Assembly: GCF_016595675.1 (NCBI RefSeq) | Contig: NZ_JAENJH010000005.1 | Coordinates: forward strand, 124,001-188,000 | Direction: 5' to 3' | Length of the DNA: 64,000 nucleotides | Origin: Prauserella cavernicola | Lineage (GTDB): Bacteria > Actinomycetota > Actinomycetes > Mycobacteriales > Pseudonocardiaceae | In this document: one piece after another, positions 11,078 to 46,156 of the stretch | Position numbering within the stretch: the stretch's first letter is position 1 | Layout: every line of letters starts with the position of its first letter | Translations under genes and position numbers: made by a program | The notes under the pieces: generated by a model | The model's database searches: none | Seen by the model: only the letters and a program-made list of their open reading frames with translations | Told to the model about the DNA's origin: nothing

Positions 11078-11676
11078 ATGGACGCGACCGCGTTGCGCAG
11101 AGCAGGTCAGGACAGCACCGGATTCCTGCTCGCGCACGCGGACGCGGACTGGTCCTCGCACGCGCCGGACATGTCGTGGAGCACCGCCGAGGTCGTGGCG
11201 CACACCGCGGACACGCTGATCTGGTACGCCCACGACCTCGCGGCCGGCCCCGACGAGCTGTCCGCCACGGACATCACGGTCCGCAGGAACGCCCCTCGCC
11301 GGAGGAACTCACGCGGACGTTGTCGGTGGGTGTCTCGCTGCTCGGGGCCCTGCTCGCGCAGGTCGACAGCGGAACCCGCGGGTGGCACCCGTGGGGCAAC
11401 GCCGACGCGTCGGGATTCGCGGCGATGGCGTGCGACGAGCTCCTCGTGCACACCGACGACGTGGCCCGCGGTCTCGGTGTGCCGTTCGCGCCGAGGCTGG
11501 AACTCGTCGACGCGACGTTGCGGCGGTTGTTCCCTTGGGCGCCCGAAGGGCAGGACCCGTGGCAGACACTGCTGTGGGCCAACGGCAGAGCCGCGCTGCC
11601 GGGCCACCCCCGGCTGGAGAAGTGGCGCTGGCACTGCGCCCCCCTGTCCGAATGGGACGGCCACACCCCCGGGTAA
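11078..11676 (+). pseudogene. mycothiol maleylpyruvate isomerase-like (DinB-fold) gene with frameshift
   Basis: The gene opens with ATG 11078, 1 bp after the symporter. The frame codes for a DinB/MDMPI-type N-terminus (STAEVVAHTADTLIWYAHDL with the metal-ligand His of the fold, then ELSATDITVRRNA). At the C-run 11292-11295 the sensible sequence jumps to the -1 frame: SPEELTRTLSVGVSLLGALL, then DELLVHTDDVARGLGVPF with a second His-x3-D ligand pattern, and ends EWDGHTPG at 11676. Restoring one base gives about 199 residues, a normal length for the family. It is therefore a recent single-base loss, a sequencing error in a homopolymer, or much less likely programmed slippage. Confidence 0.75.
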
Positions 11677-11686
11677 CGCCCACCCG

Positions 11687-12190
11687 CGAGTCCCCCGCCC
11701 GGGCACGCGAGTCCCCCGCCCGGGCACGCGAGTCCCCCGCCCGGGCACGCGAGTCCCCCGCCCGGGCACGCGAGTCCCCCGCCCGGGCACGCGAGTCCCC
11801 CGCCCGGGCACGCGAGTCCCCCACTCGAGCACGCGAGTCCCCCACTCGAGCACGCGAGTCCCCCGCCCGGGCACGCGAGTCCCCCGCCCGGGCACGCGAG
11901 TCCCCCGCCCGGGCACGCGAGTCCCCCACTCGAGCACGCGAGTCCCCCGCCCGGGCACGCGAGTCCCCCGCCCGGGCACGCGAGTCCCCCGCCCGGGCAT
12001 GCGAGTTCCCCGCTCGAGACAACGGCGAGGCGAGTGCCCCGCACAACGGCAACGAAAGCCCCTCGTCCGTTCCCCACAGAGCGCGCCGACAAGGTCGGGT
12101 GGCCGTCAGGAGCGGGGAACTCGCGCGCCCTGACGGGGAACTCGCGAGCCGTAACGGGGGACTCGCGCGCTGGAGCGGGGGACTCGCAGC
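11687..12190. repeat. 21-nt tandem array with inverted second arm, 3' of smc
   Basis: From 11687 fifteen to sixteen head-to-tail copies of a 21-nt unit with core CGAGTCCCCCGCCCGGGCA run to about 12014; copies 7, 8 and 12 carry CCCCACTCGAG in place of CCCCGCCCGGG. A degenerate centre follows. Then four units in the opposite orientation have ACTCGC at exactly 12119, 12140, 12161 and 12182. The second arm ends 7 bp from the smc stop codon. Because 21 is a multiple of three, all six frames stay open and produce long artefactual ORFs; none has protein-like composition. The array fills the gap between two convergent genes. No spacers are present, so it is not CRISPR. Confidence 0.9.
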
Positions 12191-27097: not shown

Positions 27098-27107
27098 CGC
27101 CTACTGA

Positions 27108-27156
27108 GGTGAAGGGCACCTTTACTGCGTTGAATGCAGTAAAGGTGCCCTTCACC
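27108..27156. repeat. dispersed palindrome copy 1 (21-bp arms), probable bidirectional terminator
   Basis: Perfect 21-bp arms with core AAGGGCACCTTTACTGC surround a 7-nt loop GTTGAAT. The element lies between the convergent stress-protein gene and the HAAS membrane-protein gene, so it could stop transcription from both sides. The same sequence, with loop GTTCAAT, recurs at 43915-43967, and 14 nt of the arm (GTGAAGGGCACCTT) recur at 27196-27209 within the neighbouring coding region. It lacks a clear U-tract but has an internal TTTA. It is a family of repeats rather than a unique hairpin. Confidence 0.85.
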
Positions 27157-27176
27157 GCGTTCGGGGCTCCGCGCTC

Positions 27177-35961: not shown

Positions 35962-36966
35962 GTGACCTCCCTGCGTGACATCCCGTTCTCGGTACTGGAC
36001 CTCGCTCCCGTCGTGAGCGGAGGAGACGCGCGCGACGCGTTCCGCAACACCCTCGACCTCGCCCGCAACGCGGAGCGGCTCGGCTACCACCGCTACTGGC
36101 TGGCCGAGCACCACAACATGCCGGGCATCGCGAGCTCGGCCACGGCGGTGCTGATCGGCCGCGTCGCCGACGCCACCGAGCGGATCAGGGTCGGCTCCGG
36201 CGGCGTGATGCTGCCCAACCACGCGCCGCTGGCCGTCGCGGAGCAGTTCGGGACGCTGGAGGCACTGCACCCCGGGCGCATCGACCTCGGCATCGGCCGC
36301 GCACCGGGCACCGACCAGCGCACGGCCCACGCGCTGCGCGGGTCGGCCGGGCTCGGCGCCGAGGACTTCCCGCAGCGCCTCGCCGAGCTCATCGGCTACT
36401 TCGAGCACGACGACGACCGCGCGGTGAACGCGGTGGCCGCCGAGGGCAACCGGCCGCCCGTGTGGCTGCTCGGCTCGAGCGGATTCAGCGCGCAACTGGC
36501 CGGGATGCTCGGCCTGCCGTTCTCGTTCGCCCACCACTTCAGCTCCGAGAACACGCTGCCCGCTGTGCGCCTCTACCGCGAGTCGTTCCGCCCCTCGGCC
36601 GTGCTCGACCAGCCGTACGTGCTGCTCGGCGCGGCCGTGACCTGCGCGGACACCGAAGAGCAGGCGCGCTGGATCGCAGGGTCCTACGGCCTGACGTTCC
36701 TGAGCCTGCGCAAGGGACGGCCGATCCCGCTGCCGTCGCCGCAGGAGGCCGCCGACTACCCGTACACCGATCTCGACCGCGCGTTCCTCGACGACCGGAT
36801 GGCGAGCACCATCGTCGGCTCGCCCGAAACCGTCCGAAAGGGACTCGAGTCGTTGCTGGCCGACACCGAGGCCGACGAGATCATGGTCACGACCATGGTG
36901 CACGACCACGCCGACCGGCTGCGCTCTTACGAACTGCTCGCCGACCTCGTCAACGAGACACCATGA
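35962..36966 (+). CDS. LLM-class flavin-dependent oxidoreductase
   Basis: A 334-residue luciferase-like monooxygenase of the small-group type (MsnO8/YvbT-like). The N-terminus has [31 protein letters not shown] contains the AEHH motif; [20 protein letters not shown] and [13 protein letters not shown] are characteristic, and [15 protein letters not shown] closes the barrel. GTG 35962 begins 8 bp after the HelR stop; TTG 35950 overlapping that stop is an alternative. Cofactor is FMN or F420; the motif pattern favours FMN. It is probably co-transcribed with the HelR-like gene and the SagB-like gene. Confidence 0.88.
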
Positions 36967-37031
36967 TTTCACTCGGACGGGCTACCATGCGGACATTCAT
37001 GGAGGTACCCGGACCGGGACCGGAGGTGTAG
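36963..37031 (+). CDS. possible 22-residue peptide ORF ahead of the SagB-type gene
   Basis: ATG 36963 overlaps the stop of the LLM oxidoreductase gene as ATGA, and the TAG at 37029 abuts the ATG of the SagB-type gene. The peptide ends [12 protein letters not shown]; in-frame ATGs at 36987 and 36999 would give 14 or 10 residues. SagB-type enzymes often oxidise ribosomal peptides, so a precursor is conceivable. Against it, the same bases form the ribosome-binding site GGAGGTG of the SagB gene, no cyclodehydratase partner lies nearby, and the peptide lacks Cys and has only one Ser and two Thr. Confidence 0.25.
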
Positions 37032-37745
37032 ATGAGCGGCCGCGAGACCACCGAGCGTGCCTTGGCGGTGCACCGGCTGCTGAACTCCCAGAGCCAGCAC
37101 GCCGCACGACCACTGCCGAACGGGCGCCGGTTCCCGCTGCCGGACGTGCACCCTCCGCAGGCCGACCTCGTCGCGACACTGGCGCGCCGTCGCTCGTCGT
37201 ACTCCTACGCCGACCGCGACCTGGAGCTGACCGCACTCAGCGCGTGGCTGCGGTTCTCCGTGGGCGTGCAGCGCTTCGTGCCCGCGTTCGGCGTCGCCGA
37301 CTACCCGCTCGGCATGGCGCCGAGTGCGGGTGGACTGGACATCCTGCGGGCCTACCTCATCGTGCGCAGGGCCGAGCAGCTCGACCCCGGCGTCTACCGC
37401 TACGAGGCCGTGTCCCACGAGCTGGTGGAGCTGGGTGAGAGCGACCCGGTTCCGGCGTTGCAGGAGGTGTACCTGCAGCCCGAGTTCATCCCGAGGGCAG
37501 CGGTGTCGCTCGCGCTGACGGCGCGCCTGGACGTGGCGTTCGACAAGTACCCGCTGCGGCACTACCGCACGCTGCACGTCGACACCGGCGTCGCGGTGCA
37601 GAACCTGTACCTCGTCGGCACCTCCCTCGGGCTCGCGTGCTGCGCGGTCGCCGGGTTCGACGACGCGGCGCTCGCGAACCTCCTCGGCGTCACCGACACC
37701 GAGATCCCGACGATGCTCGTCGCGGCGGGCCACGCGGCTCTCTGA
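37032..37745 (+). CDS. SagB/ThcOx-type nitroreductase-fold oxidoreductase
   Basis: A 237-residue FMN-dependent enzyme of the SagB/ThcOx group, which oxidises azolines to azoles in some peptide natural products. LARRRSSYSYADRDLELTAL is the FMN-phosphate region; FGVADYPLGMAPSAGGLDIL is the conserved PSAGGL motif; VYRYEAVSHELVEL and the closing TSLGLACCAVAGFDD-ALANLLGV match. ATG 37032 has GGAGGTG immediately upstream. No YcaO, E1-like or precursor gene is recognisable nearby, so the enzyme may act on another substrate. It converges with the arginase-family gene, with stops 3 bp apart. Confidence 0.85.
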   Translation: MSGRETTERALAVHRLLNSQSQHAARPLPNGRRFPLPDVHPPQADLVATLARRRSSYSYADRDLELTALSAWLRFSVGVQRFVPAFGVADYPLGMAPSAGGLDILRAYLIVRRAEQLDPGVYRYEAVSHELVELGESDPVPALQEVYLQPEFIPRAAVSLALTARLDVAFDKYPLRHYRTLHVDTGVAVQNLYLVGTSLGLACCAVAGFDDAALANLLGVTDTEIPTMLVAAGHAAL

Positions 37746-37748
37746 GCG

Positions 37749-38564
37749 TCAGGCCAGCAGCCCGGCCACCGCTTCGAGCACGGGGAGCAGGACCTCGACG
37801 TCCTCCCGTCGTGCGGCCGTGCATTCGGCGATGCAGGCGCCCACGACCTCGAACGCGGCCAGGCTCTCGATGCCGGCGACGAGCTGCTCGACCGACAGTC
37901 CGCCCGGCTCGTGGTAGTACGCCAGTGAGCCGAACTCGGCGGGGTCGAGTACGTCGAGGTCGAGGTGCAGATAGACCTTCGTGTCGCCCGAGGCGGTGAC
38001 GGCGCCGGTGATCGCGGCCGGCTCGGCGGGCACGTGGCGCACGAGCCCGTCGGCGACGGCGCGCCGCTCGGCGGAGTCGAACGCCCGGGTGCCGACGAGC
38101 ACCGCGCGACCGCGTTCGAGCGCTGGGCTCGCGGCGAATCCGGGGTCACCGTCGCCGAGCAGCGAGCGCAGGACCATGCCGTGGAAGGCGCCCGACGGTG
38201 AGGTGGCGGCGGTGTTGCAGTCGGCGTGCGCGTCGAACCAGACCGCGCCGAGGCCCGGCCCGTAGCGGTAGCGGGCGACGCCGAGGGGAACCAGGTCGGC
38301 GGAGCAGTCCCCGCCGATGGTGAGCACCGGACCCTGCGGGTCCTCCAGCGCGGCGAGCTGGGCGCGACGGTTGCCGACGAGCGCGGCCCTGTTGGCGATG
38401 CCGTCCACTGTGGAGGAGCCGGTGGCGCCGACGGGCACCTCGCGCACCGGCGTGCCCAGGACGTCGGCCGCGAGCGCCGCGAGCAGCCGGCACCCGGCGC
38501 CGAGCCGCTCCCGCGCCCCGTCCCAGGTGGCCCCCTGCCACTGCGGCACCGCGAACACCACCAT
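37749..38564 (-). CDS. arginase-family (ureohydrolase) protein with atypical metal motif
   Basis: A 271-residue arginase/agmatinase-fold protein. The dimanganese motifs are VLTIGGDCSADL (canonical GGDHS has His where this has Cys), VWFDAHADCNT, and LHLDLDVLDPAEFG. A first-ligand His to Cys change is a recurrent variant in actinobacterial ureohydrolase-like proteins and suggests a different substrate or single-metal use. ATG 38564 begins MVVFAVPQWQGATWDGARERL; a TTG at 38576 is an alternative. Its upstream region is occupied directly by the second 21-nt array. The substrate cannot be assigned. Confidence 0.82.
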   Translation of the reverse strand: MVVFAVPQWQGATWDGARERLGAGCRLLAALAADVLGTPVREVPVGATGSSTVDGIANRAALVGNRRAQLAALEDPQGPVLTIGGDCSADLVPLGVARYRYGPGLGAVWFDAHADCNTAATSPSGAFHGMVLRSLLGDGDPGFAASPALERGRAVLVGTRAFDSAERRAVADGLVRHVPAEPAAITGAVTASGDTKVYLHLDLDVLDPAEFGSLAYYHEPGGLSVEQLVAGIESLAAFEVVGACIAECTAARREDVEVLLPVLEAVAGLLA

Positions 38565-38595
38565 GCCCCCACCCAAGCACCCACGCCCACCCCCC

Positions 38596-39428
38596 GCGAG
38601 TCCCCCACTCCAGCGCGAGTCCCCCGCTCAGGTCCGCGAGTCCCCCGCTCCGACGCGCGAGTTCCCCACTCCTGTCCACGAGTTCCCCAATCGAGCTCGC
38701 GAGTCCCCCGCTCCAGCGCGCGAGTCCCCCGCTCAGGTCCGCGAGTAGCGCAATCGGGCTCGCGCGCCGTGAGCTCCGCGCCGCGAGTCGTGCGCTCGGG
38801 CACGCGAGTGCTGCGTTAGGGCCCGCGAGCCGGACGCCAGGCGTGCGAGTCATGCGCTCGGCCGCGAGTCCCCGCTCCGGCGCGCGAGTCCTGCGCTCGG
38901 GTTCGCCAGTCGTGCACACCAGACGGTGAGTCCTGCGTTCGGGCCAGAGAGTCTGGTGCCACGCGTGCGAGTCACGCGCTCCCGTCGCGCGAGTTCCCCG
39001 CTCCGACGCGCGAGTTCCCCACCCAGGCGCGCGAGTCCCCCCGCCCAGGCTCGCGAATTCCCTGCTCCGGAAACGACTTGGGGCCGCGAGCCGTGTCGTT
39101 CGGTCCGCTTCGCGGTACCAACGCACAACTCGCGGCCCCAAATGCACAACTCGCGGTCCTGGAGGCGCGACTCGCGCCCGAACGGGCAACTCGCGCACCC
39201 AGCGGGCACTTCGGCCGCCCGAGCGGGCACTTCGCCCACCCCAACGAGCACTTCGCCCGCCCGAACGGGCAACTCGCCCACCCCAACGAGCACTTCGCCC
39301 GCCCGAACGGGCAACTCGGCCGCCCAACGGGCACTTCGCCCACCCCAACGGGCAACTCGCCCACCCCAACGGGCAACTCGCCCGCCCGAGCGGGGGACTC
39401 GCGCGCCTCGGCGGGGGACTCGCGGCCG
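38596..39428. repeat. large degenerate 21-nt array with inverted arms, between pyc and the arginase gene
   Basis: About 24 diverged units with the core GCGAGTCCCCCGCTC run rightwards at a nearly constant 21-nt pitch: 38615, 38636, 38657, 38678, 38699, 38720, 38741, then 38783, 38804, 38825. Pitch varies only 19-22 nt. Between about 39060 and 39120 the orientation flips, and about 15 units of the opposite sense (GGGCAACTCGC or GGGGGACTCGC) follow to 39428, three bases before the pyc stop codon. This fills 866 bp without a plausible gene; long open frames through it are artefacts of the triplet-multiple pitch. The last units match the array at 12119-12190 closely, so both belong to one repeat family. 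Confidence 0.88.
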
Positions 39429-39430
39429 GG

Positions 39431-42400
39431 TTACTCCAGGACTATCAGGAGGTCGCCGCCTTCCACCTGTTGGACTTTGCCGATGGCCAGGCGGGCGACG
39501 GTGCCGCCTTCCTGGGCGGTGATCGCGGCCTCCATCTTCATGGCCTCGATGGTCGCCACGGTGTCTCCGGCGGAGATCGTGTCGCCCTCGGCCACCTGCG
39601 CCGTCACCACGCCCGCGAACGGAGCCGCGACGTGCTTCGGGTTGTTCTTGTCCGCCTTCTCCTTGGCGGGCAGGTCCGAGGCCACCGAGCGGTCACGCAC
39701 CTGGATCGGCCGCAGCTGGCCGTTCAGCGTCGCCATCACCGTCCGCATCCCGCGTTCGTCGGCCTCACCGATCGCCTCGAGCTCGATCAAGAGCCGCACG
39801 CCCGGATCGAGGTCGACCTGGTACTCCTCCCCCGGGCGCAGCCCGTAGAAGAAGTCCTTGCTCGGCAGCACACTGGTGTCGCCGTGCGCCTCGCGGTGCG
39901 CCTCGAACTCCCTGGTCGGCGCGGGGAACAGCAGCCGGTTTAGCGTCGTGCGGCGGTCCTGCGCCAGCGCCGTGCGGTCCTCTTCGGACAGCTCCACCAC
40001 CGGCTTGGGCTCCGCCCTGCCCTCGAGTGCCTTGCTGCGGAACGGCTCCGGCCAGCCACCGGGCGGGTCGCCCAGCTCGCCGCGCAGGAACCCGATCACC
40101 GAGTCCGGAATGTCGAACTTCGACGGCTCGGCCTCGAACTCCTCCGGCGAGACCCCGGCACCGACGAGGTGCAGCGCGAGGTCACCGACGACCTTCGACG
40201 ACGGTGTCACCTTCACCAGGTGACCCAGCATCGTGTCGGCGGCCTCGTACATCTTCTCGATGTCCTCGAACCGGTCGCCCAGCCCGAGCGCCCTGGCCTG
40301 CGTGCGCAGGTTCGACAGCTGCCCGCCGGGGATCTCGTGGTGATACACGCGCCCGGTCGGAGAGGCCAGCCCCGCCTCGAACGGCGCGTAGATCTTGCGC
40401 ACGATCTCCCAGTACGGCTCCAGCTCACCGATCGACTGCAGGTCCAGACCGGTCGGCCGCTCGGAGTAGTCGGTGGCCGCCACGATCGCCGACAGCGACG
40501 GCTGCGACGTCGTGCCCGCCATCGACGCGACGGCTCCGTCCACGGCATCCGCGCCCGCACCGATCGCCGCGAGATAGGTGCCCAGCTGACCACCCGCGGT
40601 GTCGTGGGTGTGGATGTGCACCGGCAGGTCGAACTCCCTGCGCAGCGCCGTCACCAGCTTCACCGCCGCCGGTGCCCGCAGCAGGCCCGCCATGTCCTTG
40701 ATGGCCAGCACGTGCGCGCCGGCCCCGACGATCTGCTCGGCCAGCTTCAGGTAGTAGTCGAGCGTGTAGATCTTCTCCGCCGGGTTGGACAGATCCGAGG
40801 TGTAGCACAGCGCCACCTCGGCCATACCCGTTCCGGTGTTACGGACCGCCTCGATCGCCGGCCGCATCTGCTCGACGTCGTTGAGCGCGTCGAAGATCCG
40901 GAAGATGTCGATCCCGGTCGCGGCCGCCTCCTCGACGAACGCGTCGGTGACCTCGGTCGGATACGGCGTGTAGCCCACGGTGTTGCGACCACGCAGCAGC
41001 ATCTGCAGGCAGATGTTGGGCATCGCCTGGCGCAGCGCCGCGAGCCGCTCCCACGGATCCTCGGCCAGGAAGCGCAACGCCACGTCGTAGGTCGCACCAC
41101 CCCAGCACTCCACCGACAACAACTCCGGCACCGTGCGCGCCACCACCGGCGCGATCGCCAGCAGGTCCTTGGTGCGCACCCGCGTGGCCAGTAGCGACTG
41201 GTGCGCGTCGCGGAAGGTCGTGTCGGTGACCCCGACCGTCGGCGACTCGCGCATCCACCGCGCGAAGCCCTCCGGACCCAGCTCGGTCAGCTTCTGCTTC
41301 GACCCCGCCTTCGGCTCACCGTCGGGCAGCTCCGGCAGCTTGCGCTCCGGATCGATCAGCCTCGGCCGCTCGCCGTGGGGCTTGTTCACCGTGACGTCGG
41401 CCAGATAGGTCAGCAGTCGCGTACCGCGGTCGGCCGAGTGCCGCGCGGTCAGCAGATGCGGCCGCTCCTCGATGAACGCCGTGGTGACCCGCCCCTGCTG
41501 GAAGTCCGGGTCGTCCAGCACGGCCTGCAGGAACGGAATGTTGGTGGCCACACCACGAATCCGGAACTCCGCCACGGCACGCCGCGCTCGGCCCACCGCG
41601 GTCGCGAACGTCCGCCCCCGGCACGAGAGCTTCACCAGCATCGAGTCGAAGTGCGCGCTGATCTCGGTGCCCGCGAACGCGGTACCACCGTCGAGCCGGA
41701 TACCCGAGCCGCCCGGCGAACGATAGGCGCTGATCATGCCGGTGTCCGGGCGGAACCCGTTGGCGGGATCCTCGGTGGTGATCCGGCACTGCAACGCCGC
41801 GCCCCGCAGGTAGATCTTGTCCTGCGCGAGGTCCAGATCGGCCAGCGACTGACCCGAGGCGATCCGCAGCTGCGACTGCACCAGGTCGACGTCGGTGACC
41901 TCCTCGGTCACCGTGTGCTCCACCTGGATCCGCGGGTTCATCTCGATGAAGACGTGGTTGCCGTCGCGGTCGACGAGGAACTCCACCGTGCCCGCGTTGC
42001 GGTAACCGATCTGCTCGGCGAACTTCACCGCGTCCGCACAGATCTGCTCACGCAGCTTCGGGTCGAGGTTCGGCGCGGGCGCCAGCTCGATCACCTTCTG
42101 GTGCCTGCGCTGCACCGAACAGTCGCGCTCGTAGAGGTGGATCACCCCACCCTGGCCGTCACTGAGGATCTGGACCTCGATGTGACGCGGCTCCACCACG
42201 GCCTTCTCGATGAACACCGTGGGGTCCCCGAACGCGGACTCGGCCTCGCGGGCCGCCGCCTCGATCGAATCCCGCAGCTGAGCCGGATCCTCGACCCGGC
42301 GCATACCACGCCCGCCACCACCGGCCACGGCCTTGACGAACACCGGGAAGCCCAGCTCCCCCGCCGCCTCCGCCAGGGTGTCCACATCGGACGACGGCTC

Positions 42401-42805
42401 CGACGAGCCGAGCACCGGCACACCCGCCGCCTTCGCCGCGGCCACGGCACGCGCCTTGTTACCGGTCAGCTCCAGAATGTCGGCGCTCGGGCCGACGAAC
42501 GTGATCCCAGCCTCCTCACAGGCCCGGGCCAGATCCGGGTTCTCGGACAGGAAGCCGTAGCCGGGATACACGGCATCAGCACCAGCCCTGACCGCGGCGC
42601 GGACAATCTCGTCCACGGAGAGATACGCGCGCACCGGATGACCCGGCTCGCCGATCTCGTACGCCTCATCGGCCTTCAGCCGGTGCAGCGAATTACGGTC
42701 CTCATGCGGGAACACGGCCACCGTTCCCGCACCCAGTTCATAGGCGGCGCGGAACGCACGAATGGCGATCTCGCCGCGGTTGGCGACGAGTACTTTGCGG
42801 AACAT
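39431..42805 (-). CDS. pyc: pyruvate carboxylase
   Basis: A 1124-residue biotin enzyme that carboxylates pyruvate to oxaloacetate for anaplerosis. The biotin carboxylase domain covers about 1-450 (KVLVANRGEIAIRAFRAAYE, the ATP-grasp GGGGRGMR near 170). The carboxyltransferase domain begins near 524 (VTDTTFRDAHQSLLATRVRT) with CWGGATYDVAL, the carbamylated Lys in LAIKDMAGLL and the zinc ligands HIHTHDTAG. The biotinyl domain holds IEAMKMEAAI near residue 1086. ATG 42805 follows GGAAAGGA. The stop codon abuts the 21-nt array. The single-chain form and length are normal. Confidence 0.98.
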   Translation of the reverse strand: MFRKVLVANRGEIAIRAFRAAYELGAGTVAVFPHEDRNSLHRLKADEAYEIGEPGHPVRAYLSVDEIVRAAVRAGADAVYPGYGFLSENPDLARACEEAGITFVGPSADILELTGNKARAVAAAKAAGVPVLGSSEPSSDVDTLAEAAGELGFPVFVKAVAGGGGRGMRRVEDPAQLRDSIEAAAREAESAFGDPTVFIEKAVVEPRHIEVQILSDGQGGVIHLYERDCSVQRRHQKVIELAPAPNLDPKLREQICADAVKFAEQIGYRNAGTVEFLVDRDGNHVFIEMNPRIQVEHTVTEEVTDVDLVQSQLRIASGQSLADLDLAQDKIYLRGAALQCRITTEDPANGFRPDTGMISAYRSPGGSGIRLDGGTAFAGTEISAHFDSMLVKLSCRGRTFATAVGRARRAVAEFRIRGVATNIPFLQAVLDDPDFQQGRVTTAFIEERPHLLTARHSADRGTRLLTYLADVTVNKPHGERPRLIDPERKLPELPDGEPKAGSKQKLTELGPEGFARWMRESPTVGVTDTTFRDAHQSLLATRVRTKDLLAIAPVVARTVPELLSVECWGGATYDVALRFLAEDPWERLAALRQAMPNICLQMLLRGRNTVGYTPYPTEVTDAFVEEAAATGIDIFRIFDALNDVEQMRPAIEAVRNTGTGMAEVALCYTSDLSNPAEKIYTLDYYLKLAEQIVGAGAHVLAIKDMAGLLRAPAAVKLVTALRREFDLPVHIHTHDTAGGQLGTYLAAIGAGADAVDGAVASMAGTTSQPSLSAIVAATDYSERPTGLDLQSIGELEPYWEIVRKIYAPFEAGLASPTGRVYHHEIPGGQLSNLRTQARALGLGDRFEDIEKMYEAADTMLGHLVKVTPSSKVVGDLALHLVGAGVSPEEFEAEPSKFDIPDSVIGFLRGELGDPPGGWPEPFRSKALEGRAEPKPVVELSEEDRTALAQDRRTTLNRLLFPAPTREFEAHREAHGDTSVLPSKDFFYGLRPGEEYQVDLDPGVRLLIELEAIGEADERGMRTVMATLNGQLRPIQVRDRSVASDLPAKEKADKNNPKHVAAPFAGVVTAQVAEGDTISAGDTVATIEAMKMEAAITAQEGGTVARLAIGKVQQVEGGDLLIVLE

Positions 42806-42894
42806 CCCCGGTCCTTTCCTTCACCCGGATCGGTCGCGAAGGACGTTACCCCTAAAGTCCCGCCTACCGGGAGTTCACTCCCAGGGTCTGGAAT

Positions 42895-43836
42895 TCACCG
42901 GCCGCCCGCCGGGACAGGGCCGGCGTGGAGCACGCGATTGGCGGTGCCGTCCCGCACGCCCGTGAGCCCGTCAGGGGTCGCCCCGGCGACGATCGCCTCG
43001 GTCACCTGCTGCGGAGTCGCGTCGGGATGCGCGGCCCGGTAGAGGGCCGCGACGCCCGCCACGTGCGCGGCCGCCACCGACGTCCCCGTCAGCTCCGAGG
43101 TGCCGCCCCGCAGCGCGGGCGCCAGCACGTCCGCGCCCGGCGCGTACAGGTCCACCGCGGCGCCGAAGTTCGAGTCGGGGACCACCGCGTCGGTCCTGTC
43201 GCTCGCCCCGACGGTCAGGACCTCGGGCACACGCCCCGGGGAGCTCTGGCCCGCGTCGGAGTTCGTCCCACCCGCGGGCACCGCCACGGGCATGACCTCG
43301 GCGAGACCGCGCACGGCCTCGTCCACCACCTCGCTGGCGGGTCCGCCGATGCCGATCACGGCGACGGCGGGCTGCCGCGCGTTGTTGGCGACCCAGTCGA
43401 TGCCGGCGAGCACGCTCAGCCCGTTGCCGCCGCCGTCCTGGTCGAGCACCCGCACGGGCACCACGCGGGCCGCCTTGGCGACGCCGTGCGCCTGACCGGC
43501 CGCGACACCGGCGAGGCTCGTCCCGTGCCCGTTGAGGTCGACGGGGTGCTCGTCGCCGTCGACGAAGTCCTTGCCGCCGGAGACCCGGCCGCCGAAGTCG
43601 GGATGCGTGCCGTCGACTCCGGAGTCGATCACGTACACCGTGACGCCCTCGCCGTCGCCCGCGTAGTGGTAGCGCTGGTCGAGCTGGTCGCCGCCCTCGC
43701 GCTGGTCGATCCGGTCGAGTCCCCAGTTGGGTGGGTCCTGCTGCACCCCGGCGTCGGCATGGGCGGGCGCAGCCGTGGCCGCGAGCAAGGCGACGGAGGA
43801 GGCGGCGAGCAGGGCGCGGGCGGGTCGAATACGCAT
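42895..43836 (-). CDS. secreted S8 subtilisin-like peptidase, atypical oxyanion site
   Basis: A 313-residue secreted subtilase. A signal peptide (ARALLAASSVALLAATAAPAHA) is followed, without a long propeptide, by GLDRIDQREGGDQLDQRYHY. The catalytic triad appears as Asp in VYVIDSGVDGTHPDF, His in DLNGHGTSLAG and Ser in LTGTSVAAAHVAG. The oxyanion-hole motif, normally AAGN, reads PAGGTNSDAG, so the expected Asn is Gly. There is no C-terminal membrane anchor, so it is not a mycosin. The closest layout is the proteinase K/aqualysin group. ATG 43836 was chosen because it starts the signal peptide. Confidence 0.88.
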   Translation of the reverse strand: MRIRPARALLAASSVALLAATAAPAHADAGVQQDPPNWGLDRIDQREGGDQLDQRYHYAGDGEGVTVYVIDSGVDGTHPDFGGRVSGGKDFVDGDEHPVDLNGHGTSLAGVAAGQAHGVAKAARVVPVRVLDQDGGGNGLSVLAGIDWVANNARQPAVAVIGIGGPASEVVDEAVRGLAEVMPVAVPAGGTNSDAGQSSPGRVPEVLTVGASDRTDAVVPDSNFGAAVDLYAPGADVLAPALRGGTSELTGTSVAAAHVAGVAALYRAAHPDATPQQVTEAIVAGATPDGLTGVRDGTANRVLHAGPVPAGGR

Positions 43837-43895
43837 GGGCACCCGTCTACCGGCTGCGCGCGCCACCCGCAGGCGGAGTACCACGATCGGGCAGT

Positions 43896-43982
43896 CGGCG
43901 AGGCAGTGACGACTGCGGTGAAGGGCACCTTTACTGCGTTCAATGCAGTAAAGGTGCCCTTCACCGCGGCGAGGCAGTGACG
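43896..43982. repeat. dispersed palindrome copy 2 flanked by 16-bp direct repeats
   Basis: The palindrome at 43915-43967 has perfect 23-bp arms with core AAGGGCACCTTTACTGC and a 7-nt loop GTTCAAT. It lies between two identical 16-bp copies of CGGCGAGGCAGTGACG, at 43896-43911 and 43967-43982. The direct repeats look like a target duplication made when the element inserted 3' of recG. It could also end recG transcription (stop at 43997 on the minus strand). No transposase is encoded within it. Confidence 0.85.
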
Positions 43983-43996
43983 CTGGGCGCGGTGGG

Positions 43997-46156
43997 TCAG
44001 GACTTTTCCAGGAACTCCGCTCGGTCCGCGTCCACGACGTCGGCGAGCAGGCGCGCCAGTCCGGGATGCTCGCCGAGGCCGGGATCGGAGCCCACGACCT
44101 CCTGCGCGACGACGCGCGCCTGCTCGATCACGGCCTCGTCCTCCAGCAGCGAGAGCAGCTTGAGACCCGAACGCTTGCCGGACTGCGCAGCGCCGAGGAT
44201 GTCGCCTTCCCTGCGCAGCTCTAGATCCAGCTTGGAGAGCTCGAATCCGTCGAGCGTCGACTCCACGGCACCGAGCCGGGCCCGCGTGCTGGTGCCGTCG
44301 AGCGCTTCCGTCACGAGCAGGCACAGCCCCGGCACGGAACCCCGGCCGACCCGACCGCGCAGCTGGTGCAGCTGGCTCACGCCGAACCGGTCGGCATCCA
44401 TGATCATCATGACCGTCGAGTTGGGCACGTTCACGCCGACCTCGATCACGGTGGTGGCCACGAGCACGTCCACCTTGCCCGCGGCGAACGCACGCATCAC
44501 GGCGTCCTTGTCGTCGCTGGGAAGGCGGCCGTGCAGCACACCGATGCGCAGGCCCTTCAACGGTCCGTCGGCCAGCTGTGGCGCCAGGTCCAGCACGGCG
44601 ATCGGGGGACGTTTGTCGCTCTTGTCCGACGGCGGCTCGTCGCCGATGCGCGGGCACACGATGTAGGCCTGGTGGCCCTTGCCGACCTCCTCGGCGACGC
44701 GCCGCCACGCCCGGTCGAGCCACGCGGGCTTCTCCGCGACGGGCACCACGCTGGTCGAGATCGGCGAGCGCCCCGCGGGCAGCTCACGCAGCGACGAGGT
44801 CTCCAGATCGCCGTACACGGTCATCGCGACGGTCCTCGGGATCGGCGTCGCCGTCATCACCAGCACGTGCGGGCTCGTCGAGTCGGCGCCGCGCGAACGC
44901 AGCGCGTCGCGCTGTTCGACACCGAACCGGTGCTGCTCGTCCACCACGACGAACCCGAGGTCGGCGAACGACACGTGGTCCTGGATCAGCGCGTGCGTGC
45001 CCACGACGATCCCGGCTGCGCCGCTCGCGGTGTCCAGTAGCGCCTGCTTGCGTTCCTTCGCCGACATCGACCCGGTGAGCAGCGTGATCCTGGTGGCGTT
45101 GTCCGCGGCACCGAGCTCGCCCGCCTGGCCCAGTTCGCCGAGCATCTCTCGCAGCGAGCGCGCGTGCTGCGCGGCCAGCACCTCGGTGGGCGCCAGCATG
45201 GCGGCCTGCCTGCCCGCGTCGACGGCCTGCAGCATCGCCCGCAGCGCCACGATCGTCTTGCCACTGCCGACCTCGCCCTGCAGCAGCCGGTTCATCGGGT
45301 GCTCGGTCGCGAGGTCCGCGGCGATGGCCTCGCCGACCTGCCGCTGCCCCTCGGTGAGCTGGAACGGCAGCTTCTCGTCGAACGCCGCCGCGATGCCACC
45401 GGGCTTCGACGGACACGATGGAGCGGGCCGCGACACCGCGGAATGCCTGCGCTGCGCGAAGATCAGCTGCACCGCCATCGCCTCGTCCCACTTGAGGCGC
45501 TCGCGCGCGGCGTCGAGCCGCTCCCAGCTCTCCGGCCGGTGGATCTGGGTCAGCGCGTCGTGCAGCCCGTCGAGGCCGTGCCGTTCCCGAAGCCCTGGTG
45601 GCAGCGGGTCGTCGACGGGTTCCAGGGTGTCGAGCACCTGGCGCACCGCGCGGCCGATCGTCCACGACTGCACGCCCGCGGCCGCCGGGTACACGGGGAT
45701 GATCTGGGCGAGGAAGCTGTCCATCGCGCTGGACTCGTCGCCGTCGGGATCGATGAGCTCGTACTCGGGGTTGGCCAGCTGCAGCGTGGTGCGAAACGCC
45801 GTGACCTTGCCCGCGAACAGCCCGGTGCGGCCGGGCCGCAGCTCGCGCTCGCGCCACACCTGGTTGCCGAAGAACGCGCACGAGATCCGGCGCTGGCCGT
45901 CGGTGATGGTGACCTCGAGAATCGAACCCTTGCGCTGGCGCATCGGCTTCTTCGTGGCGCCCTCGACCCTCGCGAGCACCGTGGCGTGCTCGCCGATCTC
46001 CAGCCCCGCGATGTCGGTGAGCTCGCCCCGCCTGGCGTAGCGGCGCGGGTAGTGCCGGAGCAGCTCGGCGACGTTGCCGATGCCGAGGGAGCCGTCGAGC
46101 GCCTTCGCGGTCTTGGCCCCGAGCACCCTGTCCAGGCCGTCGGTCAGCTCAGTCAT
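43997..46156 (-). CDS. recG: ATP-dependent DNA helicase RecG
   Basis: A 719-residue helicase that remodels stalled forks and Holliday junctions. The N-terminal wedge (OB fold) covers about 1-200 (RYARRGELTDIAGLEIGEHA). Helicase motifs are LLQGEVGSGKTIVALRAM (motif I), LTGSMSAKERK, VVDEQHRFGVEQRDAL (DEQH box), VMTATPIPRTVAMTVYGD and HGRLPSDDKDAVMRAF, with VGRGSVPGLCLLV near the end. ATG 46156 starts 4 bp after the DAK2 gene's stop; an upstream GTG is less likely. The order rpmB, DAK2 gene, recG is shared with mycobacteria. Confidence 0.96.
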   Translation of the reverse strand: MTELTDGLDRVLGAKTAKALDGSLGIGNVAELLRHYPRRYARRGELTDIAGLEIGEHATVLARVEGATKKPMRQRKGSILEVTITDGQRRISCAFFGNQVWRERELRPGRTGLFAGKVTAFRTTLQLANPEYELIDPDGDESSAMDSFLAQIIPVYPAAAGVQSWTIGRAVRQVLDTLEPVDDPLPPGLRERHGLDGLHDALTQIHRPESWERLDAARERLKWDEAMAVQLIFAQRRHSAVSRPAPSCPSKPGGIAAAFDEKLPFQLTEGQRQVGEAIAADLATEHPMNRLLQGEVGSGKTIVALRAMLQAVDAGRQAAMLAPTEVLAAQHARSLREMLGELGQAGELGAADNATRITLLTGSMSAKERKQALLDTASGAAGIVVGTHALIQDHVSFADLGFVVVDEQHRFGVEQRDALRSRGADSTSPHVLVMTATPIPRTVAMTVYGDLETSSLRELPAGRSPISTSVVPVAEKPAWLDRAWRRVAEEVGKGHQAYIVCPRIGDEPPSDKSDKRPPIAVLDLAPQLADGPLKGLRIGVLHGRLPSDDKDAVMRAFAAGKVDVLVATTVIEVGVNVPNSTVMMIMDADRFGVSQLHQLRGRVGRGSVPGLCLLVTEALDGTSTRARLGAVESTLDGFELSKLDLELRREGDILGAAQSGKRSGLKLLSLLEDEAVIEQARVVAQEVVGSDPGLGEHPGLARLLADVVDADRAEFLEKS

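Follow-up and report, generated by a model that had tools for sequence, protein, structure and literature searches.

The window, a stretch of 64,000 nt, belongs to a Prauserella genome of 7.21 Mb (G000) and carries an array of tandem 21-nt units between a pyruvate carboxylase gene (pyc; best named match Prauserella endophytica, 95%) and an arginase-family gene (Table 1). Both genes lie on the minus strand, that is, the gap is codirectional, and the left arm of the array abuts a gene start.

Table 1 Features of the window discussed in the text.
Feature	Position	Strand	Remarks
Sister array, left arm	11685..12013	+	nearly homogeneous 21-nt units
Sister array, right arm	12109..12187	-	stops 7 nt short of the end of smc (12194)
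Members of a dispersed G000 hairpin family (GGTGAAGGGCACCTTTACTGC)	27106-27158 and 43913-43969		between genes
Arginase-family gene	37749..38564	-	start faces left arm of target array; alternative TTG start 38576
Target array, left arm	38594..39062	+	about 22 units of 21 nt (about 470 nt), CGCGAGT first
Left-arm units, outer	about 38594-38760		CCCC-type
Left-arm units, middle	38760-38980		mixed, mostly GTGC-like
Left-arm units, inner	38980-39062		CCCC-type
Target array, centre	39063..39115	none	orientation flip
Target array, right arm	39116..39428	-	about 15 inverted units (313 nt), adjoining the pyc stop
Pyruvate carboxylase gene (pyc)	39431..42805	-	stop faces right arm of target array

Autocorrelation over 38596-39428 peaks at lag 21, followed by lags 42 and 63, and its value of 0.586 is far above those of 500 dinucleotide shuffles (mean 0.31, sd 0.015, maximum 0.358; z 17.9); the periodicity is significant in all four sub-segments tested (z 5.3 to 13.6). 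Steps in the left arm, read inward from the unit at 38615, are 21 (ten times), 20, 19, 20, 21 (three times), 20, 22, 21, 21, 22 and 20 nt, with the outermost unit (38596) lying 19 nt before that at 38615, and steps in the right arm are 21 (four times), 20 and 21 (four times) nt for the ten units followed by an automated walk. An earlier note on this locus had proposed exactly such a pitch, kept through variation of 19 to 22 nt, and both this and the orientation flip that it placed at about 39060-39120 are borne out, the centre lying at about 39063-39115. Positions 39078-39095 are 89% complementary to 39124-39141, and the inner part of the right arm carries a G-rich sub-variant (GGCGAGTTGCCCGTT / GGCGAAGTGCCCGTT in sense). 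The supposed total of about 40 units in two arms is correct as to the arms, but comes to about 37 units by arm length and 27 by a strict detector; likewise, the inverted arm ends three bases from the pyc stop if counted from 39428, but its outermost anchor ends at 39424, six bases from the stop codon (39431-39433).

A sister array at 11685-12187 occupies a convergent gap, with a plus-strand frame on one side and smc on the other, and matches the target array in core and arm order, as the proposed membership of one family would have it. The arm order is the same at both loci, as had been claimed, with the arms pointing inward, but their relation to gene ends agrees only in part, since the sister gap is convergent, the target gap is codirectional and the target's left arm stands at a gene start. 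The suggestion that the target is the older of the two fits its mixture of CCCC-type units with GTGC-type units, the common type in the congener G084, but its innermost left units are of the CCCC type again. The gene to the left of the sister array (11078-11676) seems to be split over two frames, one opening with the ATG at 11078 and the other with the GTG at 11176, and no Pfam match was found for 11326-11676.

The pattern CGCGAGTYCCCC has 140 and 137 matches on the two strands of G000, where its reversal has 2 and 0. For placement we took those clusters that fell within the first 100 of the 277 listed matches, together with one whole contig (C55), using gene boundaries from a home-made codon-usage gene caller and leaving out two regions with no array above threshold (L047 and L049). 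Thirty arrays were above threshold, and 17 lie in convergent, 13 in codirectional and none in divergent gaps. Compared with the 179 gaps of at least 60 nt on C55 (26 convergent, 94 codirectional, 59 divergent), arrays are enriched in convergent gaps (17/30 versus 26/179; Fisher p 2e-6) and depleted in divergent ones (0/30 versus 59/179; p 3e-5). Arrays sit between called genes, none wholly inside one; they are open in several frames, yet a coding role was rejected because the 22-nt pitch found in other genera (see below) excludes a common reading frame.

All 21 two-arm arrays of G000 have the inward order. The earlier note had inferred a shared arm order from two loci, and for two-arm arrays of this genome this stands; however, 9 of the 30 arrays are one-armed (4 plus only, 5 minus only; two of these nine, L039 and L052, are not behind a gene on their strand), and the order varies in other genomes. 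Among the 60 outer ends of the 30 arrays, 38 point inward at no more than 60 nt from a stop on the matching strand, 2 point inward farther from such a stop, 11 point inward beside a gene start and 9 point outward. The inward ends behind a stop (n=40) have a median distance of 10.5 nt, 22 of them lying within 12 nt. The two congeners taken together (G053 and G084) have 8 of 12 arrays inward and 4 one-armed; 1 of the 12 gaps is divergent. Outside Prauserella, divergent gaps hold 1 of 6 arrays in G031 and 2 of 19 in the set g15 (one of its 20 arrays, lacking a right-hand gene, was left out), and arm order is variable: 4 of 12 two-arm arrays are reversed in g15, one is reversed and one mixed in G031, and one is mixed in G147.

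In seven genome sets the unit consists of CGCGAGT, a variable 5-mer and a tail of approximately G(C/T)TC and another six or seven bases, g15 being the exception with CTCC after the 5-mer and a tail ending in ATCAC; the exact anchors in this tally were selected by the detector, for which GCGAGT was the search word. The main 5-mer is CCCCC in G000 (138/287 units) and G053 (33/83, followed by TGCCC with 19), CGTGC in G084 (35/47), CGTAC in G031 (34/35), CGTAA or CGTAC in G142 (40/49), CCAAC in G147 (27/36) and TACGC in the mixed g15 (31/117). It recurs across records, in 22/22 of G000 (C55 counted as one), 6/6 of G031 and 6/6 of G147. Unit length is constant within the detector range of about 19-23 nt, at 21 nt in Prauserella and g15 (250/265 spacings of G000, 111/114 of g15) and at 22 nt in three genomes of other genera (29/29 spacings in G031, 25/27 in G147, 40/41 in G142). 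By eye, the pyc gap of G054 closely resembles that of A. oliviviridis, which makes Amycolatopsis the probable identity of the set g15.

The anchor pattern was found in 51 of 200 Pseudonocardiaceae genomes and in 22 of the 46 genera sampled, with a patchy distribution within genera; the reversed pattern has few matches in most genomes. Two of 196 other genomes of the class matched, each once. A spread of the arrays by viruses was rejected, no exact match having been found in IMG/VR for one CCCC-type pair pattern, the only type searched. Downstream of pyc in Williamsia maris there are two 21-nt arrays, apparently of opposite orientation, built on another word, GCGGAGTTACGTGCCCAACTG (L133 7411-7505 and 8117-8231), so that such arrays may exist outside the Pseudonocardiaceae with a different anchor. 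Several 19-nt arrays (CCGCGGATCACAGCGCGCC and relatives) lie near pyc in Pseudonocardia endophytica (L110 8455-9222).

A two-arm array stands behind pyc in G000, P. endophytica and G084; the orthologous gaps of two congeners thus hold arrays too, where random GC-rich sequence would have spoken against the earlier note. We inspected the pyc gaps of 12 further genomes, chosen mainly for having arrays somewhere. Five contain an array, with z values of -0.8 to -2.3 for the next 100 nt: the array is long and begins about 300 nt after the stop in G014, has two or three units in G044 and G077, and is small with reversed arms in G129 and G019. The G014 array (L246) is a higher-order repeat in which TTCCCC, TTCTGC and ATCCGC unit types alternate in blocks. 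Three genomes have a strong hairpin behind pyc (G172, z -8.0; G054, -6.1; G142, -3.9), and G191 has z -4.4, but its next gene seems to start at once. In G147, G031 and G121 the end of pyc showed neither an array nor a hairpin. When the pyc loci of named relatives were folded (20 loci and P. endophytica, out of 80), z was below -3 in 12 of the 21, the strongest folds being those of A. oliviviridis (-9.4), A. dendrobii (-9.0) and Lentzea flava (-8.5), and above -2 in L063, L064, L092, L100, L110 and L115. Array and hairpin occur together in A. thailandensis (L060, a small array behind pyc) and in L050.

In a scan of the 80 nt after the stop in the three congeners, strong hairpins (z < -3) stood behind 52% of the convergent stops free of arrays (n=123) and 22% of the codirectional ones (n=231), but behind 4% of the stops bearing an array (n=55). 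The rate at array-bearing stops differs from that at array-free convergent stops (Fisher p 3e-11), a difference that is in part trivial, since the array itself occupies the stretch scanned, and the whole z distribution at array-bearing stops does not differ from that at codirectional stops (p 0.69). In none of the seven array gaps of C55 was there a strong hairpin not built of array units. The hairpins of G000 include a dispersed, near-perfect intergenic family (GTGAAGGGCACC; GGTGAAGGGCACCTTTAC; GGTGAAGGGCACCTTTACTGC) that makes up 12 of the 50 strong hairpins on C55. G053 and G084 have a similar family in other wording (GTGAAGGCCACCTTCAC), which suggests that the hairpins too may be homogenised by species. 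A hairpin ancestor of the arrays, with CGTGAGT or CGCGAGT in its 5' arm, was rejected, there being none among the 50, 56 and 45 strong hairpins of three congener contigs and one in Pseudonocardia oroxyli.

Based on these observations, we propose that the array is an alternative gene-end boundary element, most likely one bound on DNA (or on nascent RNA) by a sequence-specific factor, and we give this reading a probability of roughly 0.4. The position, orientation and pitch of the arrays, and the occurrence of array or hairpin at one and the same gene end across relatives, can be read directly from the genomes compared; a layout with a function, as the earlier note supposed, gains indirect support from the exclusion with hairpins. 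Right behind the stop codon, units of 21 nt, equal to two helical turns of B-DNA, are lined up head to tail with GCGAGT first on the coding strand, and where two genes converge, as well as in part of the codirectional gaps, a second arm faces the first. A putative factor could read GCGAGT together with the species-variable 5-mer, and a row of bound proteins may then stop or insulate transcription in place of a hairpin terminator. A trans-acting reader is favoured by the single main 5-mer across records, by the anchor in 22 of 46 genera, and by arms that are no more alike in their 5-mers within a locus (0.77) than between loci (0.76; 20 loci). Such a row would resemble in layout the rDNA terminator arrays of eukaryotes, where oriented tandem sites behind genes are bound by TTF-I or Reb1; this is an analogy only. 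The DNA uptake sequence dialects of Neisseriaceae, short words with a conserved and a species-specific part that often stand as inverted pairs behind genes, are likewise an analogy, but they are single words and not 21-nt arrays. Counting against a boundary element are the coexistence of array and hairpin in L050 and A. thailandensis, the pyc ends with neither in G147, G031 and G121, the left arm of the target at a gene start, some arrays in divergent gaps, the variable arm order outside Prauserella and the partly trivial nature of the hairpin exclusion.

Three syntenic contig pieces (425, 400 and 391 kb) were compared among the three congeners, of which G053 and G084 are nearest to each other (median identity of proteins 95.8; difference at four-fold sites 0.174, versus 0.31 to G000). 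Of seven G000 arrays, four have adjacent orthologous neighbours in both congeners, with arrays there in all four cases, and for two others an array adjoins an ortholog. The seventh, at 375644, has no array at its non-adjacent G053 orthologs, and the G084 piece contains no ortholog. One array is present in G053 and G084 and absent from G000. An array of this distribution (L166 19734-19862; G084:C13:239734-239862) has flanks that look similar by eye and could copy the last 40 nt of the gene. Beyond congeners, a single pair of shared positions (L031 and L227) was found among array-flanking proteins, in a comparison of low power. Gaps of at least 60 nt were retained between G000 and G084 in 4/4 array gaps and 26/30 ordinary gaps, so that retention alone is no evidence of selection, a result that also counts against the boundary element.

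Within shared arrays, units turn over. In G053-G084 alignments at pyc and at locus D the inner sequence is shared and the outer units have been replaced. Four aligned units at locus C have changed, each at the same positions; the picture is less clear for loci A and B, while at locus E both genomes retain units of the GTGC type. G084 has mostly CGTGC, whereas its sister G053 and the outgroup G000 have mostly CCCC-like units with some CGTGC, and the common type therefore departs from the phylogeny. Outer-unit replacement between sister species and a unit type shared across loci are visible in the sequences themselves. A general polarity, with more current-type units at outer than at inner positions, was rejected: it is marked in G000 (37/48 versus 17/48, p 7e-5), yet not significant in G053 (13/15 versus 8/15) and G084 (5/6 versus 4/6), and a current-type stretch at the inner end of the target array runs counter to it.

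Pitch is kept better than sequence, in line with the earlier note. When adjacent units are compared, the ratio of gap events to substitutions is 0.042 (G000), 0.047 (G053) and 0.013 (G084), whereas ordinary intergenic DNA of orthologous gaps gives 0.212 and 0.217 under the same aligner settings, the array ratios being biased low by the detector step window (about 19-23 nt) and by in-register copying; these values are unfiltered, since dropping units with internal indels gives 0.0075, which is too favourable. The pitch is 21 nt in 9 of the 18 most diverged neighbour pairs of G000, in an ungapped and hence partly circular comparison. The earlier note took the kept pitch as an argument for selection on spacing, but in-register copying would keep the pitch without selection.

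The turnover fits a serious rival to which we attach a real, if minority, chance of being right, namely that the arrays are a satellite without a cellular job, whose units are amplified and homogenised by slippage and ectopic exchange and which survives mainly behind genes because it is harmful elsewhere. Outer-unit replacement and changes of array length between sister species, the ordinary retention of array gaps, the patchy occurrence (51 of 200 genomes, with differences inside genera) and the local higher-order repeats in G014 are all in its favour. However, mere tolerance would not predict the inward order (21/21 in G000), starts that typically lie within tens of nt of a stop, or the hairpins that relatives carry at the corresponding gene end, and divergent gaps are equally non-coding yet hold 0 of the 30 arrays in G000.

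An RNA device, in which the two inverted arms pair as one long stem of the transcript that terminates transcription or protects the 3' end, we consider unlikely. Folds are strong for the target gap (z -9.9), for its G084 ortholog (-10.8) and over 28 two-arm gaps (median z -9.05), but this is to be expected from inverted arms made of one genome-wide unit. Taken together, the one-arm gaps (n=12) fold no better than shuffles (median z -0.05; 3/12 below -3), yet they are placed at gene ends in a similar way; co-variation of the arms was looked for and no left-right coupling within loci was found, and no Rfam match up to E 0.1 was obtained over 36000-44200. Hairpin terminators, the dispersed family of G000 among them, likewise stand at gene ends, and some relatives have them after pyc, but one-arm arrays do not fold as a group, no T-run was seen in the sequence behind the target array, and the GC-rich hairpin with T-run of an intrinsic terminator is not the rule at array-bearing stops (z < -3 at 4% of 55). 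Since two-arm gaps fold strongly, one-arm gaps do not and arms are unmatched within loci, the common denominator is an oriented tandem word behind the stop and not a stem.

Two further explanations fare worse. A Rho-loading region, where C-rich, G-poor sense RNA is exposed once the ribosome leaves, would suit the pooled arms of G000 (sense strand C 0.444, G 0.318), but the C excess is slight in G084 (0.383 versus 0.345) and the composition of the pyc arm, which is G-rich in sense (G 0.454, C 0.284), contradicts it, so that we regard this as very improbable. Least credible of all is the view that the arrays are REP-like and owe their spread to a REP-associated transposase or to a reverse transcriptase. 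The REP/BIME elements of enterobacteria are dispersed at 3' ends and between convergent genes in inverted arrangement, with a proposed boundary role, and our arrays resemble them in being dispersed, in their gene-end location and in their inverted arms. They differ in having tandem in-register units that are not palindromic by their folding (the one-arm gaps above), and the transposase domain Y1_Tnp (PF01797) has no match in G000, G053 and G084 and matches in only 3 of 35 genomes overall. The reverse transcriptase domain RVT_1 is present in these three array-rich Prauserella genomes and absent from the array-poor G014, but among the genomes chosen it occurs in 8/17 array-rich and 5/18 array-poor ones, and most comparable array positions are common to congeners; neither enzyme shows a clear link with the arrays, and both were rejected as drivers.

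Constant-size tandem repeats of 20-23 nt have been described in bacteria, including Actinobacteria, by Subirana and Messeguer, as species-specific, non-coding sequences of fixed unit size and variable sequence that keep a short word and whose function is unknown; in the part of that text available, a row of proteins on the DNA is suggested (PMC8161180). Related reports, as far as the available portions go, describe 20-21-nt and 52-nt repeats with constant size, variable sequence, a short conserved word and no known function (PMC8161180, PMC6749651, PMC8625621). Each of these traits was found in the Prauserella arrays, which combine a constant unit length and varying sequence with species-specific units, a short kept word and non-coding location. 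Relative to the repeats as portrayed in the available part of PMC8161180, the arrays add placement at stop codons, inward arms, positions shared by congeners, unit types that switch across loci, and hairpins as the alternative. No title on gene-end arrays in Pseudonocardiaceae was found in the open-licence literature, and we provisionally regard the gene-end layout and the type switching as new, the bacterial 20-23-nt constant-size repeats themselves having been described already.

Such repeats have been called enigmatic, having a size but no known role, in the available text of PMC8161180. For the present arrays a place can be named: they stand behind stop codons, for the most part pointing inward, at sites that carry hairpins in other relatives. 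Between sister species the common unit type has changed at many loci, which amounts to a natural experiment. The role of the arrays is thereby made testable. Going further, and with appreciable doubt, the Pseudonocardiaceae may possess a private boundary system, in which a putative factor, its site made up of a fixed word and a species-variable 5-mer, would assemble on oriented two-turn arrays behind genes and end or insulate transcription, and renewal of the gene-proximal units would let many loci track the specificity of that factor.
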